Positions 19,372 to 27,324 of a DNA stretch of 64,000 nucleotides are shown here, one piece after another (the stretch's first letter is position 1; the number at the start of each line of letters is the position of its first letter). Source of the DNA: Arboricoccus pini (lineage in GTDB: Bacteria; Pseudomonadota; Alphaproteobacteria; Geminicoccales; Geminicoccaceae); NCBI RefSeq assembly GCF_900187945.1, contig NZ_FYEH01000003.1, positions 186,001 through 250,000 on the forward strand, in the 5' to 3' direction. The notes below the pieces were generated by a model. That model was not told the DNA's origin. It saw only the letters and a list, made by a program, of their open reading frames with translations, and ran no database searches. The position numbers were made by a program, and so were the translations under genes.

Positions 19372-20706
19372 TCAATCGCTTAGAGCCGCATGAGACGATC
19401 CCCACCAAAGACGCGGCAACCCATGAGGCGGCTGTTCACCGATTACGATAGCCATCCCTACCTGAAGGCGCACATGAGCGGCTTGTTCGTGACTCCTCGC
19501 ATGTACGAGGCATAATGGCTGGCCGACTTCAATTCGTTCACCGACGCCCACGAGCTCGCTTAACCCTACGCAAGGGTCGATTCCGGCCTCAGGGCGGCTT
19601 CGACCGCCGCCCAATGCGACGATTATCTCGCCTAGCCGGCGCACATCGATCTCGGCAACCCAGCCCGGCCGTTGCGCTATGACAGGAAGGACGACGGGTG
19701 CTTTCGGCAAGATATCGCGATAGCGTTCGACGAGGTCAGACGGGCCGCCTTGCGCTGCGGTCATACGCGCGAAAACTTCAAGGGCCCGTCCGTCCGCGAG
19801 CCGTTCATCCACGAGCGCCAGCGCATCGTTCAGAGTCGCCGCCAGCCCCCCAAGAACAAGAAGCTCTGCCGACAGGCCGCGCACAGCGGCCAGCAATCGA
19901 GCTTCGCCGGGTTGGTTTGTCAGAAGCCGGATGACCTCGATGATCTCCAGAGCGTTGCCGGCGGTGCGGCCCAGACACTGATTCATATCCGTCAGGATCG
20001 ACTTGCAGGCAAGTCCGGCACCCTGGGCCACGAATTCGATCGAGTGGGCCAGATCGATCGCCTGCTCCAGAGAGGGCAGAAACGCGCCATTGCCCACCTT
20101 CACGTCCATCAGCAATGCGTCTGCGCCGGCAGCCAGCTTTTTGGCCAGGATCGATGCGGTGATCAAAGGCAAGCTGTCGACCGTCGCGGTAACATCCCTG
20201 ATTGCATAGAGCCGACGGTCGGCGGGTGCTAGATCCTGGCTTGCGCCCACGATCGCACAACCGACCTCGCGGACGACCATCTGCAAATCTGCTGCATCCA
20301 GACGCGTATCGAAGCCTGGTATGCTCTCGAGCTTATCAAGTGTGCCACCGGTATGCCCGAGACCGCGCCCAGAAATCATCGGCACGAAACCGCCGCATGC
20401 CGCTACGATGGGCGCAAGCGCCAAGCTCACCTTGTCGCCAAGACCGCCCGTGGAATGCTTATCAAGAACAGGGCCTGGCATGTCATCCCAGCGGAGAACG
20501 ATGCCGGTATCTCGCATCGCAAGGGTCAAGGCTATGGTTTCACGCTTCGTCATGCCATGGATGCGAATGGCCATGGCAAGGGCCCCCACCTGAGCGTCGA
20601 CCAAGCTGCCATTAGCGATATCATTGACGAGCGCTCTCACCGCCAGGTCATCAAGTTGCTCGCCGTCCCGCTTCGCGGCGAGAAGTTCCTGTGGCGATAG
20701 CTTCAT
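19372..20706 (-). CDS. deoA: Thymidine phosphorylase
   Basis: Phosphorolyses thymidine and deoxyuridine to the base and deoxyribose 1-phosphate. The 444-residue protein has the family signature around SGRGLGHTGGTLDKLESIPGF (near residue 115), the KHSTGGLGDK phosphate site and the MDVKVGNGAF block. The ATG at 20706 overlaps the stop of the DeoC-like gene by four bases (ATGA), showing translational coupling as the last gene of the nucleoside operon; a longer frame to 20886 overlaps that gene out of frame and is rejected. Confidence 0.95.
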   Translation of the reverse strand: MKLSPQELLAAKRDGEQLDDLAVRALVNDIANGSLVDAQVGALAMAIRIHGMTKRETIALTLAMRDTGIVLRWDDMPGPVLDKHSTGGLGDKVSLALAPIVAACGGFVPMISGRGLGHTGGTLDKLESIPGFDTRLDAADLQMVVREVGCAIVGASQDLAPADRRLYAIRDVTATVDSLPLITASILAKKLAAGADALLMDVKVGNGAFLPSLEQAIDLAHSIEFVAQGAGLACKSILTDMNQCLGRTAGNALEIIEVIRLLTNQPGEARLLAAVRGLSAELLVLGGLAATLNDALALVDERLADGRALEVFARMTAAQGGPSDLVERYRDILPKAPVVLPVIAQRPGWVAEIDVRRLGEIIVALGGGRSRPEAGIDPCVGLSELVGVGERIEVGQPLCLVHARSHEQAAHVRLQVGMAIVIGEQPPHGLPRLWWGSSHAALSD

Positions 20707-21443
20707 TGCTGGAATCGCGTCACGAAGTGCCTTTCCTCCACTCGAATATTCGCGGGCCTGAGCCATTCCGGCCCAAGAATCGCTTGAGCGAGACTCGCTA
20801 GCGGCGCCAGCGCCGACTTTCCTTGCGATAATTTGAAGCCGACCTTTCCCTCGGCCTCCATGGCTACGGACAGCAGGACTGCGCACAGGTCTAGATCAAG
20901 TGGACCCGATGCCGATGGCATCGTGACGCCGAGAAAGTCGACCCCAGCCATGATGGCGGTACGGGCGATCGCCGTCGCCATGCTCGGATCAACGGAGCCT
21001 CCAGGCGTAAGGATGCGCAGCGCGACGCCTGGCCCTGCCGTGGTCCGGCAAGCTTCGATCAGATCGCCGACCAGCCCGACGTCGCCATCTTCCACTGCGC
21101 TGAGAGGAACCAGGAACTCGACGGCCCCGGCACCATCGCCAGCGCAAGCTCCTGCTTCTGCGGCAATCGCCGCGATATCGTCACCTTGCGCTTCGTTCAG
21201 CCTGACGATCATGACTGGAGTCGCATCCTGCATGGCGCGGCGAACCACCTCGACCATCTTCGCGTCAACGCAAACGCCGGGCCCATTGGCGGCACGAACC
21301 TCGCGCGCTGCCAAGAGGACTTCGTTTTGCGCCATGCCACGCGCATCGAGTTCAACGAAGCACGAACATTGATCGCGCAACGCTTCAGGTAATGGTGCGG
21401 TCATCGCGGTGCCGACAAGAGTTTGCAAATCAAGCGGTGGCAC
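20703..21443 (-). CDS. DeoC-like aldolase-fold protein lacking the Schiff-base lysine
   Basis: A 246-residue TIM-barrel protein in the position expected for deoxyribose-phosphate aldolase. By eye-alignment to E. coli DeoC: the K201 segment is kept (KVGFK, here about K204), but the Schiff-base K167 in DFIKTSTG is replaced in DFLGVTMP (about G172), D102 in EVDVV is Glu (AVEFL, about E109), and K137 is Arg. The overall order of blocks agrees with DeoC. The start is GTG at 21443, backed by GGAG 7 bases upstream and overlapping the previous gene by 14 bases; an internal ATG at 21404 lacks a site. It may be a different aldolase-fold enzyme, or inactive. Confidence 0.65.
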   Translation of the reverse strand: MPPLDLQTLVGTAMTAPLPEALRDQCSCFVELDARGMAQNEVLLAAREVRAANGPGVCVDAKMVEVVRRAMQDATPVMIVRLNEAQGDDIAAIAAEAGACAGDGAGAVEFLVPLSAVEDGDVGLVGDLIEACRTTAGPGVALRILTPGGSVDPSMATAIARTAIMAGVDFLGVTMPSASGPLDLDLCAVLLSVAMEAEGKVGFKLSQGKSALAPLASLAQAILGPEWLRPANIRVEERHFVTRFQQ

Positions 21444-22644
21444 GAACGATCTCCGGCAGAGCTATCTTCAGGAAGGAAGCAAGTGCAGCCTTGGCACGAG
21501 ATGCCTGACTCAAGGTCTGCTCATGGGACAACGGCGATGCACTAAGGCCGGCAGCGAAATTCGTAACGATAGAGAGGGCGACGACCTTCATGCCGGCATG
21601 TCGACCGCTGATCGCCTCCGGTACGGTCGACATGCCGACCAGATCGGCTCCCATAAGGCGCAGTGCACGAATCTCGGCTGGGGTCTCGAAGACGGGCCCG
21701 AGCATTGAAGCGTAAATACCCTCGGTGAGTTGCACGCCCCTATCTCTGGCCAAGGTCAAAAGCCGGCGTCGACAGGCCGGGTCGTAAAGATCCGTGAGAT
21801 CGAGAAACGAAGGACTCCCATTTGCATCACGTACCCCCATCATCGGATTAGTGCCCATCATGTTAATATGATCACTGATGAGAACGAGCGATCCGGGGCC
21901 GATTTCGGGCCTAAGCGAACCCGCCGCATTGGTCAGCATGAGCGTCTTGCAGCCGATCGCCGCCAACGTATCTAGCGGATCGTTGAAGCTCTTGGCCGAA
22001 TGGCCCTCGTAGAGATGCATGCGGCCACGCATGACGGCGACAGGCACGTCGCAAAGTCTGCCAAGCATGAGTTGCCCGGCATGGCCCGCAACACTGGGCG
22101 CCGGGAAGCCGTCAAGCTCGGCGTAGGAAAAGACGATAGCATCCTCCAACGCCTCGACTGCCTCGCCCATCCCGGAGCCGAGAACAAGGGCAATTTCGGG
22201 AGCTTGAAATCCAGCCCGAGAGCGGATGAGCGTCGCGGCGTTCGATATGCCTGGTGCTGTGACGGGGCGCAGGGCGAAGGCTCGGGGCAGAAGTTCGCCT
22301 AACGTCATCCTCAGGATTGCGGCGTCGGCGCCGGTCATGTGGACAAGGACGCCGGCGTCGGCGAATTCTGCAAGACGCTGTCGACAGCCGCCGCACGGTA
22401 CACAAGGTTCTTGACCACTGCCGGCGACGGCGACCTCGCGAATTCGTCGCTCCCCCGCCGCAATCATGGCGGCGATGGCACCAGCTTCGGCACAGGTGCC
22501 GAGCGGGTAGGCAGCGTTTTCCGTATTGGCGGCCACATAGATCCGTCCACTCTCGCCCCGCAGAGCCGCCCCGACGTGGAAGCCCGAATAAGGCGCGTAG
22601 GCTTGACGCCTGGCGGCGCAGGCGGCCTCCAAAAGGTCGTTCAT
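21430..22644 (-). CDS. Cytidine deaminase :: purine nucleoside phosphorylase fusion
   Basis: One uninterrupted 404-residue frame holds two enzymes. Residues 1 to about 128 are a homotetrameric-type cytidine deaminase: zinc ligands C51, C84 and C87, the catalytic Glu in CAEAG (E53) and the PCGGCRQ motif. From about residue 133 to the end is a trimeric-type purine nucleoside phosphorylase: LVLGSGMG, RMHLYEGH, LTNAAGSL, GPVFETPAE, VGMSTVPE and IVTNFAAG. The product would deaminate cytidine and deoxycytidine and phosphorolyse purine nucleosides. It lies 3 bases after the permease gene. Confidence 0.9.
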   Translation of the reverse strand: MNDLLEAACAARRQAYAPYSGFHVGAALRGESGRIYVAANTENAAYPLGTCAEAGAIAAMIAAGERRIREVAVAGSGQEPCVPCGGCRQRLAEFADAGVLVHMTGADAAILRMTLGELLPRAFALRPVTAPGISNAATLIRSRAGFQAPEIALVLGSGMGEAVEALEDAIVFSYAELDGFPAPSVAGHAGQLMLGRLCDVPVAVMRGRMHLYEGHSAKSFNDPLDTLAAIGCKTLMLTNAAGSLRPEIGPGSLVLISDHINMMGTNPMMGVRDANGSPSFLDLTDLYDPACRRRLLTLARDRGVQLTEGIYASMLGPVFETPAEIRALRLMGADLVGMSTVPEAISGRHAGMKVVALSIVTNFAAGLSASPLSHEQTLSQASRAKAALASFLKIALPEIVRATA

Positions 22645-22647
22645 CGC

Positions 22648-23619
22648 TTAGCGCTCCTTCACATAGGGCTTTCCCACGGCTCTGGGCGCCACGGCTCGGC
22701 CGACGAACCCGGCAAGCAGGATGATGGTGAGAACATAAGGCAAAGCCTGGACCAATTGAGTGGGGACGCTGCCTATGCCCGGCAAGCTAACACCCTGCAG
22801 CCTCGCCTGGAGGGCATCCGTAAAGGCGAAGAGTAGGCAGGCCAGGACAGCCGGAACAGGACGCCATTTGCCAAAGATGAGGGCAGCGAGGGCTAGATAT
22901 CCCTTCCCCGCCGTCATGTCGCGCGTGAAGCCCTCACTTTGCGCGATGGATAGATAGGCGCCGGCAATGCCGCAAAGAAGGCCTGTCATCAGGAGGGCCC
23001 GATAGCGCAGGGAGGCTACCGAGATCCCAGCGGTATCGACGGCGGCCGGGTTTTCGCCGACAGCACGCAGCCTCAGCCCAAATCGGGTACAATATAGAAC
23101 CCATACAGCCAGCGGGATCGTCAGGACAGCTATGTAGGTCAGCAGATTTTGGCCGCTAATGATGTCGGTATAGACAAGGCCAACGATCGGAATATCCCGC
23201 ACCCCCGCGGCGAAAGGGAGTTCGATCGGCATAAACCGTCCCCGCCCCGGAGGCAGAGAAATACGCCCTGCCTGTCCGAACCAGGCCTCAGCCAAGGTGG
23301 GGCCTAGGCCTGCCACGGTGATGTTGATAGCCATGCCCGAGACGACCTGATCGCCACGATGAGTAATCGTTGCGTAGCCGTGCACCAGCGCAAGCATCAT
23401 GGAAGTGACAATAGCGCCGGCAAGACCCAGCAAATGGGACCCGGATATCGCCGTCAACGCGGCTGCGGCAAATGCGGCCGCCAACATTTTGCCTTCGAGG
23501 CCTATATCCACGACCCCGCTGCGCTCGGCGAAAAGTCCGGCCAGAGCCGCCAACACCAAGGGCGTTGCCAGCCGGATCGTGCTGGCGGCGAGAAAGACGC
23601 TCTGGTCGAAATAGTCCAT
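22648..23619 (-). CDS. Nucleoside ABC transporter permease (YufQ/NupC-type)
   Basis: A 323-residue inner-membrane permease of the BMP-family ABC importer, with about eight to nine hydrophobic helices and the coupling-type segment FAERSGVVDIGLEGKML near the N-terminus and RAVGENPAAVDTAGI in the middle, both typical of branched-chain/nucleoside-type permeases. It is the second of the two permeases and starts 2 bases after the first ends. Confidence 0.93.
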   Translation of the reverse strand: MDYFDQSVFLAASTIRLATPLVLAALAGLFAERSGVVDIGLEGKMLAAAFAAAALTAISGSHLLGLAGAIVTSMMLALVHGYATITHRGDQVVSGMAINITVAGLGPTLAEAWFGQAGRISLPPGRGRFMPIELPFAAGVRDIPIVGLVYTDIISGQNLLTYIAVLTIPLAVWVLYCTRFGLRLRAVGENPAAVDTAGISVASLRYRALLMTGLLCGIAGAYLSIAQSEGFTRDMTAGKGYLALAALIFGKWRPVPAVLACLLFAFTDALQARLQGVSLPGIGSVPTQLVQALPYVLTIILLAGFVGRAVAPRAVGKPYVKER

Positions 23620-23621
23620 GC

Positions 23622-24728
23622 TCAGGGCTGAGATCGCTGTGGACGCATCAGGCGTGCCTGGAGCAACGGTCCAAACAGGTGCTCGAGACCGCCAGCGAAG
23701 AGAATGACAAGCCCCTGTACAACGACGACGATGTCGCGACTAACCCTGGGCATGTCGAAAGCGAGCTCGGATCCGCCCTGATAGAGCGCGCCGAAGAGAA
23801 TAGCTGCAAGGATGATGCCGATCGGATGATTTCGCCCCATCAGTGCGACGGCGATGCCCACATAGCCGTAACCAGCGACGAAACCCAGAATGACGCGATG
23901 CTGGGCACCCAACACCTCGTTAACTGCCATAAGACCGGCCAAAGCACCTGAGAGGATCATCGCGATGATAACGATCCGGCCAACATTGATGCCGGCATAG
24001 ACGGCGGCGTCGCGATTATGACCCACGACCCGGATCTCATAGCCGAGCTTGGTCTTCCAGATCAGCAACCAGAAAAGAATGCAGCACAAAAGGGCTAACA
24101 GGATCGACGCGTTGAGCGGCGACCTGCCGAGATCTACGCCGAACGGCCCGAGCCATGTCCATAACTGCGGCAGCCAGAACGCATGGGGAAAAACGATCGT
24201 CTCCGGACTTTGCTGCCCCGGACGGATAAGAACATTGACCAAGAGATATGCCATGAGCGAGGCAGCGACGAAGTTCAAAAGGATCGTCGTAACGACGACG
24301 TGACTACCGCGCCGAGCCTGCAGCCAGCCAGGAACGAGGCCCCAGATCCCGCCAACCAAGGCAGCTGAGAAAATCGCGGCCGGAATGGCAAGGAAACGCG
24401 GAAGGAAACCAGCAAACGTGCCGACGATCGCTATGCCCAGGCCGCCCAAGTAGGCCTGCCCCTCCCCCCCGATATTGAAAAGTCCGGCGTGAAAGGCCAG
24501 GGCGACGGCTAACCCGACAAAGATGAAGTTCGTGGCATAAAACAGGGTATATCCCCAGGCTTCGCCGTAGCCGAAGGCCCCATAGATCATAAGCCAAGCT
24601 GCCCGCAGCGGATTTTCACCGATCAGCAGCACGATCAGGCCAGAGACAAGAAAAGCGGCCGCGAGATTAATGAGCGGGATGAGCCCGATATCGATCCAAA
24701 ACGACAGGCCACGCCGAGCGGCAGCCAT
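23622..24728 (-). CDS. Nucleoside ABC transporter permease (YufP-type)
   Basis: Larger permease (368 residues) of the same importer, about nine to ten helices, with FNIGGEGQAYLGGLG and RVVGHNRDAAVYAGIN, the family's conserved loops. The frame begins with a GTG at 24737, but the ATG at 24728 has AGGAG at 8-base spacing and is preferred. It sits 15 bases downstream of the ATPase gene. Confidence 0.93.
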   Translation of the reverse strand: MAAARRGLSFWIDIGLIPLINLAAAFLVSGLIVLLIGENPLRAAWLMIYGAFGYGEAWGYTLFYATNFIFVGLAVALAFHAGLFNIGGEGQAYLGGLGIAIVGTFAGFLPRFLAIPAAIFSAALVGGIWGLVPGWLQARRGSHVVVTTILLNFVAASLMAYLLVNVLIRPGQQSPETIVFPHAFWLPQLWTWLGPFGVDLGRSPLNASILLALLCCILFWLLIWKTKLGYEIRVVGHNRDAAVYAGINVGRIVIIAMILSGALAGLMAVNEVLGAQHRVILGFVAGYGYVGIAVALMGRNHPIGIILAAILFGALYQGGSELAFDMPRVSRDIVVVVQGLVILFAGGLEHLFGPLLQARLMRPQRSQP

Positions 24729-24743
24729 CCTCGACACTCCTCT

Positions 24744-26255
24744 TCAGTCCGCCGCTACAGCGTCGCCATCCGCCATCATCATGCCGATCGCGCGCTCGTC
24801 AGCCATTGCAGTCGGCATGCGGCCGCTGATCCTTCCATCGGCCATGACGAGGATACGGTCGGCAAGCGACATGATCTCCTCGAGCTCGACCGAGACGATC
24901 AGGACAGCCATTCCCTGATCGCGCAGTTCAACAATACGTCGATGAATGAGTTCAATCGCTCCGACATCAACGCCACGCGTCGGCTGGCCGATGAGGAGAA
25001 GCACCGGGCCGTGCTCGATCTCGCGTGCCATGACTAGTTTTTGCTGATTGCCGCCTGAAAATGAGGTGGCGTTGAGAAAGACGTCGTGTGGACGGATGTC
25101 ATAGCGACTGAACCAGTCCCTCGTCCGCGACAAAATGGTCCGGATGGACAGAAAGAAACCGCCATAATCTCGTCGCCGGTGATAACCCAAAATAGCATTC
25201 TCGTAGGCCTTCATGCCGCGCACGAGACCGTTGCGAAGCCTATCCTCGGGAACGTGGGCCACACCCTGCTCGCGGATAGAACGCCAACAGGTCATTTTAC
25301 CGCGTATGGCGATCGATCCTCTGGTTGGTGATCGCATGCCTCCCAAGACCTCAAGGAGTTCACTCTGGCCGTTGCCCGACACGCCAGCTACGCCAACGAT
25401 CTCACCGGCATGGACGGAAAATGACAAATCCTTGAGCCGCGCCACACCGCGCTCGTCCTTTAGATCTAAGGCCTCCACCCGAAGGACCTCAGGGCCCGGG
25501 CGCGCAGGTCCTTTCGCCACTTGGAACAGAACGGCGCGACCGACCATGAGCTCAGCCAGTTGCTCCCGCGAGGTTGCCCTGGTCTCCAGGTGAGCCACCA
25601 TTTGGCCGCGCCGCATGACGCTGACACGGTCTGTAACCCGCATGATCTCGCCCAACTTGTGCGTGATCAGAATCACGCTTCGACCTTGCATTTTCAAGTT
25701 TCGCAGAATGCTGAAGAGGTGATCTGCCTCTTGTGGCGTTAGGACACCCGTCGGCTCATCGAGGATGAGGGTGCGCGCCCCCCTATAAAGGGCCTTTAGG
25801 ATCTCGACACGTTGCTGCAGACCTACAGCCAGTTCGCCGACGACAGCATCGAGATCCACCTCAAGGCCGTAGTCACGCTCAATCCTGGCAATCTCACGGC
25901 GAGCCGCAGTCATCCCCCTCTTGAGGGTGACGCCACCTTCTGAACCCAGCAGCATGTTCTCAAGAACCGTCAACGGTTCGACCAACATGAAATGCTGATG
26001 GACCATACCTATGCCGGCCGCGATCGCATGACGCGGCTGGCTGATCTCAACCTCGCTGCCGTCCACCAGCATAGCGCCGGAATCAGCCTTCAGGTAGCCA
26101 TAGAGAATGTTCATCAGCGTCGACTTGCCGGCGCCATTTTCGCCGACAATGCCGTGAATCGTGCCGGACTCGATGCGAATGTCGACGCGGTCATTGGCGA
26201 CATTGCCGCCAAAGCGTTTCGAGATCGCGCGTAGTTCAATGGCGGCGGCTTGCAT
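24744..26255 (-). CDS. Nucleoside ABC transporter, tandem ATP-binding protein
   Basis: A 503-residue protein with two ABC cassettes, as in RbsA and YufO. Cassette 1 has Walker A GENGAGKST near residue 38 and a Walker B LILDEPT; cassette 2 (from about 255) has the degenerate P-loop GVSGNGQSE, the signature FSGGNQQK and no normal Walker A lysine, which is the rule in this family. Energises import together with the two permeases. Confidence 0.94.
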   Translation of the reverse strand: MQAAAIELRAISKRFGGNVANDRVDIRIESGTIHGIVGENGAGKSTLMNILYGYLKADSGAMLVDGSEVEISQPRHAIAAGIGMVHQHFMLVEPLTVLENMLLGSEGGVTLKRGMTAARREIARIERDYGLEVDLDAVVGELAVGLQQRVEILKALYRGARTLILDEPTGVLTPQEADHLFSILRNLKMQGRSVILITHKLGEIMRVTDRVSVMRRGQMVAHLETRATSREQLAELMVGRAVLFQVAKGPARPGPEVLRVEALDLKDERGVARLKDLSFSVHAGEIVGVAGVSGNGQSELLEVLGGMRSPTRGSIAIRGKMTCWRSIREQGVAHVPEDRLRNGLVRGMKAYENAILGYHRRRDYGGFFLSIRTILSRTRDWFSRYDIRPHDVFLNATSFSGGNQQKLVMAREIEHGPVLLLIGQPTRGVDVGAIELIHRRIVELRDQGMAVLIVSVELEEIMSLADRILVMADGRISGRMPTAMADERAIGMMMADGDAVAAD

Positions 26256-26265
26256 CAGCCTGCGC

Positions 26266-27252
26266 CTAATTCGGCTGATATCCCTTTACGACGATTTTTC
26301 CGGCAATGATTTCCGCCTTCGCGGCTTCGAGCTTCTGTCGCATGTCCGTCGTCAGGATGGAGGCATTATGATCGTCGACCGCATAACCTACCCCATCCTC
26401 TCTGAGGCCGAGCACACGGGTTCCCGGCTTCCAACCATCGCCTTGGGCTTCCTTGAACGCTTCATAAACGGCGACGTCGACACGCTTGACCATCGAGGTC
26501 AGGACATGCCCCGGATAGAGGCCATTCTGATTGCTGTCGACGCCGATGCCAAGTTTGCCACGATCGGCGGCGGCTTGCAGGACACCTCTGCCCGTAGCAC
26601 CCGCCGCATGATAAACGACATCGGCGCCGCGATCGAACTGGCTGATAGCAAGCTCGTTGCCTTTGGCGGGATCACTCCAGGCGGCTGCCGTATCCCCGGC
26701 ATAATTCACCAGAACCTTGTCATCCGGCTTCACATAGTGAACGCCTTCTTCATAGCCCACCTGAAAGTTGCGAATCAGTGGGATGTCCATACCACCGACG
26801 AAGCCGGTGGTCCCCGTCTTGCTGGCTAACGCGGCAGCCATGCCGACCAGGAATGAGCCCTCCTGCTCCTTAAAGACAATCGATTCGACGTTCGGCTTGT
26901 CGACGACGGCATCAATGATCACGAACTTGGTGTCTGGATACTGGTCTGCCAGCGTCTCAAGTGGGGTCGCGAAGGAAAACCCGGCCATGACCACGATATT
27001 CGCGCCGCGCCTAGCCATTCTCGACAAGGCCTGCTCGCGTTGGCTCTCATTGGTGATCTCGAACTCGAGATAGCTAATACCTGTATCCTGCTTGAACTTC
27101 TCAGCACCATGGTAGGCCGCCTCGTTGAAGCTCGCGTCGAACTTGCCGCCCATGTCAAAGATCAGCGCCGGCTGAAAATCGGCCGCGCGAACCACGGTTG
27201 CGGTGCTGAGCAAAGTCATCGCGACGATGGCAGCGCCAATCGACTTGAGCAT
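26266..27252 (-). CDS. BMP family nucleoside-binding protein
   Basis: Substrate-binding protein of the importer, related to PnrA/BmpA. It has a signal peptide (about 1-23, ending VVRA before ADFQP) and no lipobox, so it should be free in the periplasm. The binding segments DMGGKFDASFNEAAY and GIGVDSNQNG are characteristic of the family. The internal ATG at 27252 has AGGGA at better spacing than the ATGs upstream. It heads the transport genes and lies 72 bases after the LysR gene. Confidence 0.92.
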   Translation of the reverse strand: MLKSIGAAIVAMTLLSTATVVRAADFQPALIFDMGGKFDASFNEAAYHGAEKFKQDTGISYLEFEITNESQREQALSRMARRGANIVVMAGFSFATPLETLADQYPDTKFVIIDAVVDKPNVESIVFKEQEGSFLVGMAAALASKTGTTGFVGGMDIPLIRNFQVGYEEGVHYVKPDDKVLVNYAGDTAAAWSDPAKGNELAISQFDRGADVVYHAAGATGRGVLQAAADRGKLGIGVDSNQNGLYPGHVLTSMVKRVDVAVYEAFKEAQGDGWKPGTRVLGLREDGVGYAVDDHNASILTTDMRQKLEAAKAEIIAGKIVVKGYQPN

Positions 27253-27324
27253 AGGCATTTCCCTGAGTGGCTGGGGCACTGTCGGTCGACGCTAGAGACA
27301 GAGCCGAGAAATGCAACTGCCTGC

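Follow-up and report, generated by a model that had tools for sequence, protein, structure and literature searches.

Cytidine deaminase of the homotetrameric type (T-CDA; TIGR01354, 1jtk) and trimer-type purine nucleoside phosphorylase of the PunA/XapA group (PNP; NF006054 and TIGR01697; XapA structures 1yqq and 3odg) are the closest described relatives of the two halves of a single gene, cdd-punA, found in the window (the whole 64,000-nucleotide stretch of DNA that was analyzed). XapA itself is a hexamer. In tetrameric Cdd, three subunits build the active center, and Phe126 in CDA_F14 (Phe125 in Bacillus subtilis) is supplied by another subunit (PMC9897663). In calf PNP, Phe159 is supplied by the neighboring subunit, and the PNP trimer is reported to be necessary for stability and activity (PMC9916683). 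Azospirillum, Paroceanicella, and Sinorhizobium have the same two enzymes encoded by adjoining genes in the same order in a BMP operon, but there a stop lies between cdd and punA and two proteins are made. RibD, of which the genome of the window has one, likewise joins a deaminase-superfamily domain to another enzyme, in that case a reductase; its two reactions are consecutive, whereas those of the Cdd-PNP fusion are not.

Fused gene and its active-site residues

The window gene differs from T-CDA in that a PNP is fused to the C end of its Cdd and from PunA/XapA in that its PNP carries a Cdd at the N end (Table 1). The frame is uninterrupted from ATG to stop, including across the junction at 22240-22262. 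Pfam places dCMP_cyt_deam_1 at residues 3-102 and PNP_UDP_1 at residues 151-395, each above its cutoff. Among the NCBIfam models, tetrameric Cdd (TIGR01354) scores 127.9 bits against a curated cutoff of 113.65, and the second half of the protein is recognized by the PNP families NF006054 (333 versus a cutoff of 218) and TIGR01697 (287.8 versus 197.1). However, the PNP of the fusion falls below the cutoffs of the equivalogs for XapA (TIGR01699; 268.7 versus 370.9), PUNP (300.9 versus 302.6), and PNPH (249.3 versus 293.35).

Table 1. Coordinates of the fused gene, its parts, and the adjoining operon genes in the window
Feature	Position	Strand	Remarks
Fused gene cdd-punA	21430..22644	-	404 aa plus stop; open frame, Pfam, NCBIfam
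Cdd domain, residues 1-124	22273..22644	-	C51, E53, C84, C87, F123
Joint, residues 125-146	22207..22272	-	Low-confidence residues 125-133, then first helix of PNP
PNP domain, residues 147-404 (start approximate)	21433..22206	-	S157, H188, R208, H210, Y212, E213, F280, E320, M338, N362, H374
ABC permease (BPD_transp_2)	22648..23619	-	Frame ends 3 bases ahead of the fusion start codon
ABC permease (BPD_transp_2)	23622..24737	-	
ABC transporter ATP-binding protein	24744..26255	-	
BMP/PnrA-like substrate-binding protein	26266..27279	-	
DeoA thymidine phosphorylase	19372..20706	-	Start taken as ATG at 20706; mechanical frame from 20886
Degenerate DeoC-like protein at the deoC place of the operon	20703..21443	-	Intact 246-codon frame; Schiff-base lysine missing

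A sequence search of the PDB found relatives of both families, with the PNP half closest to the XapA/PNP family. In the predicted structure, for which the 27 fused proteins served as input (mean pLDDT of 83.4, pTM of 0.65), both folds are formed. The pLDDT is below 50 at residues 125-133 in the joint and, inside PNP, at residues 211-213 and 273-276, and residues 136-144 form the first helix of PNP. XapA and PNPs were the best matches in a fold search of the PDB; the best 50 were all PNP-family chains, XapA first, and no Cdd chain was among these 50. The first-pass annotation gave the two domains a linker of only a few residues (about 128-133), which was too short an estimate: 31 residues lie between F123, the last Cdd core residue, and the LGSG motif of PNP.

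Conservation was assessed in an alignment of 27 proteins, one from each of the 28 fused loci except L054, in which a contig end cuts the gene. The 26 other aligned proteins are 45 to 57% identical to that of the window, and 62 columns are invariant. The Cdd zinc ligands and catalytic Glu (C51, E53, C84, and C87, in the C-A-E and P-C-x-x-C motifs) are kept in 27/27, as is the Phe at F123, which lines up with position 125 in 1jtk, the B. subtilis Cdd. The score class, the zinc ligands, the catalytic Glu, and this subunit-bridging Phe are thus all shared with T-CDA. Residues 54-55, in contrast, are AG in the window and RT in 1jtk, and place 54 is occupied by A in 20, R in 5, and T in 2 of the fused proteins.

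Residues of the PNP half were matched to calf PNP numbers by motif, a correspondence that we presume to hold. The active-site list of calf PNP comprises Ser33, His64, Arg84, His86, Tyr88, Glu89, Glu201, Met219, Asn243, and His257, together with Tyr192, Phe200, Thr242, Ala117, and Glu259 (PMC9916683). S157, H188, R208, H210, Y212, E213, E320, M338, N362, and H374 are kept in 27/27 fused proteins, and F280, at the place matched to calf Phe159, is equally invariant. Both Glu residues of FETPAE are invariant; the first is E320, the counterpart of Glu201, and E324, at the place of the calf interface residue Glu205, is kept in 27/27. Other places vary. In the window, the places of Tyr192 (Y in 21, L in 5, and F in 1 of the 27 proteins), Phe200 (F in 23, Y in 4), Thr242 (T in 24, V in 3), and Ala117 (A in 16) are occupied by Tyr, Phe, Thr, and Ala, respectively, and that of Glu259 (E in 20) by Gln. 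Variation at the first four of these pocket positions suggests that the substrate range may differ among members.

The proteins with Leu at the Tyr192 place are those of one genus, g6 (L005, L006, L007, L012, and L015), where the residue perhaps marks a shift in substrate range.

When the genome of the window was searched with the sequence of the fusion (E up to 0.001), the fusion was the only match. The three PF00383 matches are the fusion, a TadA-like protein (107.1 bits, below the TadA cutoff of 150), and RibD, among which no further cytidine deaminase was recognized. Besides the fusion, PF01048 matches an MTA/SAH nucleosidase and one protein on contig C14 (51.2 bits). Invariant active-site residues, combined with the lack of a second relative in the genome, argue that both halves work. 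One could suppose instead that one domain is a passenger, with Cdd, for example, serving only as an oligomerization or stability module, but the invariance of its zinc ligands and catalytic Glu and the fact that no other cytidine deaminase was recognized among the three PF00383 matches make this very improbable. The frame, the Pfam and NCBIfam calls, and the 27/27 conservation bear out the original proposal of a single-gene Cdd-PNP fusion in which each half has a complete set of active-site motifs. We consider it likely, at a probability of roughly 85%, that the protein is an operon-born bifunctional salvage enzyme with both halves active; both activities, like the substrate range, are deduced from the conserved residues.

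Distribution of the fusion

The order to which the window belongs was sampled as 31 genomes, all of one family, and the frame runs through the joint in 23 of them, including G025, in which the far end of the gene is lost at a contig edge. In the remainder, one genome (G030) has the gene over three frames, another (G019) has part of Cdd at a contig edge, and 6 gave no match to the fusion query. Among 7 genomes of a second order, the fusion is present in 5 and the query was unmatched in 2. The fusion is therefore the usual state in two orders, and it was not met elsewhere in the samples taken. It had initially been regarded as a singular oddity, a view that does not survive its frequency in these two orders or its origin in neighboring operon genes. 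The first-pass annotation had also considered that the fusion might prove to be common and already described. Common it is, in the two orders; as to description, neither a cdd-PNP fusion nor a bifunctional enzyme of this kind was found in the open-licence PubMed Central literature, although it may be noted elsewhere, and the parts of PMC4177761 that concern the two enzymes name both without such a fusion.

The joint is read through in 28 loci, which belong to 28 different genomes. This rules out a frameshift or stop between the domains, confirms the single frame through the junction that the first-pass annotation had singled out, and leaves an assembly or sequencing artifact with a negligible probability, even though errors of this kind, or decay, do happen, as the broken frame in G030 shows. 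That broken gene (L104, G030:C28:17000-22000) reflects either decay or assembly indel errors.

When 385 genomes were drawn evenly from the class, matches over both domains appeared in 14 of them, among the matches listed, and 8 of these lack a stop at the joint (4 from the family of the window and 4 from the second order); the count covers the matches listed, and a fusion whose match was split into two pieces would escape it. An evenly drawn sample of the phylum, 398 genomes searched at E up to 1e-40, yielded 3 matches across both domains, of which only that of the window itself is free of a stop. At least 80% of the query is covered by 12 plasmid records, of which 8 were fetched, all of them unfused (8/8). 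Five loci came from a further scan of contigs, with unfused pairs at three of them (two from Reyranella and one from an alphaproteobacterium) and PNP alone at the other two.

Several individual matches were inspected. In G137, a match to query 59-390 in an open frame of 467 had looked like a third fusion but was rejected: the stretch contains no Cdd match, and upstream the frame reads through the permease gene out of frame. Two matches that start inside Cdd (G189 and G130) were also discarded, as their two domains sit in different frames. The internal stops flagged in the fused matches of G015, G018, and G024 proved to be at the extreme C terminus, which the match overran, and the joint is free of them.

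Operon neighbors and probable origin of the fusion

The window follows the order of a BMP-type nucleoside salvage operon, namely, BMP, ATPase, two permeases, cdd, punA, deoC, and deoA, with deoC degenerate. Paroceanicella profunda has BMP, ATPase, permease, permease, separate cdd and punA, deoC, and deoA, followed by deoB, add, and upp. The operon of Azospirillum thermophilum is the same except that three additional genes separate the ATPase from the permeases. That of Sinorhizobium meliloti lacks deoC, runs from the ATPase through deoA, and has no adjoining BMP gene listed; in both, cdd and punA are separate. Neighborhoods were examined for 13 of the 23 fused loci in the order of the window, and both permeases adjoin the fusion in 11 of the 13. 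In G013 (L080) and G023 (L088), no permease, BMP, deoC, or deoA gene was found within about 7 kb on either side, and the only operon-like match near the fusion in G013 is a 25% match to the ATPase. At two fused loci of the second order (L089 and L090), deoA is close behind the fusion and no DeoC match lies between them.

The DeoC-like protein of the window scores 25.4 bits for DeoC against a cutoff of 117.3. Its FLKTSTG motif reads FLGVTMP, so that the lysine is absent, and the Asp of the E-I-D-V motif is missing as well; we take these to be the Schiff-base lysine and a catalytic Asp. The operon copy of DeoC in G003 is also degenerate, scoring 79.5 bits and lacking the lysine. Each of the two genomes encodes a full DeoC at another place, at 255 bits for the window (G000:C10:47346-47972) and 158 bits for G003, and the lysine is kept in the other 17 aligned DeoC copies beside punA, at fused and unfused loci. 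G018 has two DeoC proteins above the cutoff, and its operon copy retains the lysine, which speaks against any simple rule by which the first DeoC copy is free to decay once there is a second.

Unfused neighbors indicate how the fusion may have arisen. In 17 of 32 measured unfused pairs, cdd and punA overlap by 4 bases when the punA start nearest the cdd stop is chosen, a choice with which the annotated starts of Paroceanicella profunda and Sinorhizobium meliloti agree; in G152, the ATG comes directly after the cdd stop. From the last core Phe of Cdd to the LGSG of PNP, fused proteins have 31 to 42 residues (median, 33; 28 loci), and the two tails of unfused pairs sum to 22 to 37 residues (median, 31; 32 of 35 loci, with L058, L059, and L073 absent because the motif rule or the start search gave nothing). 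The fused joint is thus about as long as the sum of the separate tails, and loss of the stop between neighbors explains the fusion. We infer that complete proteins were joined by stop loss or a small frame change, with little lost or added.

A tree was built from 61 rows (27 fused and 34 unfused), with 4 of the 65 left out: L054 (cut short), L055 and L057 (the broken G030 gene), and L073 (a near copy of L071). The fused rows fall into two groups that require two changes of state. Forcing all of them together costs 2.46 log-likelihood units (p-AU of 0.424), and a single origin is thus not rejected. An unfused pair with a 4-base overlap (G382:C7; L092 and L041) groups inside the clade of the order of the window, with its place there unresolved; a later split or a transfer is possible. 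Named relatives lie among genomes of the sampled class in this tree, which indicates that the class is Alphaproteobacteria.

A harmless loss of the stop may have been fixed by drift and become hard to undo once the PNP start and its ribosome-binding site had decayed, a history to which we assign not quite an even chance. It is compatible with a bifunctional enzyme and differs from that reading only on the usefulness of the linkage. The joint of the window (residues 125-146) contains no in-frame ATG, GTG, or TTG, and 9 of the 28 fused loci, the window included, lack a start codon of any kind there. An ATG is left in 2 of the 28, without an SD-like motif, and the operon order is otherwise retained in the 11 of 13 neighborhoods noted above, as judged by both permeases. 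However, a GTG preceded by an SD-like motif is still found in the joint in 3 of the 28 (L002, L008, and L028), where PNP may also be started separately, and drift alone does not account for why 4-fold and 3-fold subunits tolerate being linked.

Proposed function and assembly of the fused protein

For the bifunctional salvage enzyme, we propose that nucleosides are taken up by the BMP-type ABC transporter whose genes lie upstream. The Cdd half would convert (deoxy)cytidine to (deoxy)uridine, the deoxy form of which could be cleaved by DeoA, and the PNP half would convert inosine, guanosine, and their deoxy forms to the base and (deoxy)ribose-1-phosphate. Cdd gives uridine or deoxyuridine, DeoA splits the deoxy form, and PNP acts on purine nucleosides; uridine is not known to be a substrate of trimer-type PNP. 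The two reactions are thus parallel rather than consecutive, which makes a substrate channel unlikely, and channeling was set aside on this chemistry. Loss of the stop between two adjoining, often overlapping genes would have created the fusion, and the gain from it would be 1:1 production and physical linkage. With parallel arms served by one transporter, the simplest advantage to propose is a fixed dosage, and the simplest history is neutral fixation.

The puzzle of tetramer versus trimer raised in the first-pass annotation is genuine, in that a tetramer-type Cdd and a trimer-type PNP share one chain. The bridging Phe residues of both are invariant. Each half probably retains its own oligomer, and a large assembly would then be expected. 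If both oligomers are kept, closed particles require a multiple of 12 chains. The smallest closed form would have 12 chains arranged as three Cdd tetramers and four PNP trimers, with each tetramer-trimer pair linked once. A D2 tetramer that sits off center is impossible in a strictly symmetric closed cage, so either the joint breaks the symmetry, a network is formed, or an oligomer has changed. Three arrangements are thus conceivable, namely, particles whose chains number a multiple of 12, a network that stays open, or an altered oligomer. That a D2 tetramer and a C3 trimer, joined by a flexible link of about nine residues, yield a defined large particle or an extended network is a tentative suggestion, for which we put the chances at well under even.

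An alternative reading is that the fusion is kept because it forms a scaffold, a multienzyme particle that perhaps also binds DeoA or the transporter and raises the flux of nucleoside breakdown. Retention of the fusion over long divergence (45 to 57% identity to the protein of the window), its persistence outside the operon in two genomes (G013 and G023), and the invariance of the subunit-bridging F123 and F280 (27/27) are consistent with such a role. However, neither reaction feeds the other, and the joint, whose sequence varies, has roughly the length of the two ancestral tails, with no sign of a purpose-built interface. In addition, a change of Phe159 alone is described as having little effect in human PNP (PMC9916683), so that conservation of this residue is weak evidence for a trimer. 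We therefore regard a scaffold as unlikely.

The enzymology of each half is ordinary, and the interest of the bifunctional enzyme lies in how the linked halves assemble. It provides a clade-wide natural case of two enzymes of different oligomer symmetry in one chain. Its unfused sister genes, which occur in the same operon elsewhere, offer a comparison and thus a clean test of the effect of fusion on assembly. The protein may also be a ready-made bifunctional biocatalyst for nucleoside chemistry. If the particle does form, it would be a nucleoside-degrading enzyme particle born from one lost stop codon.
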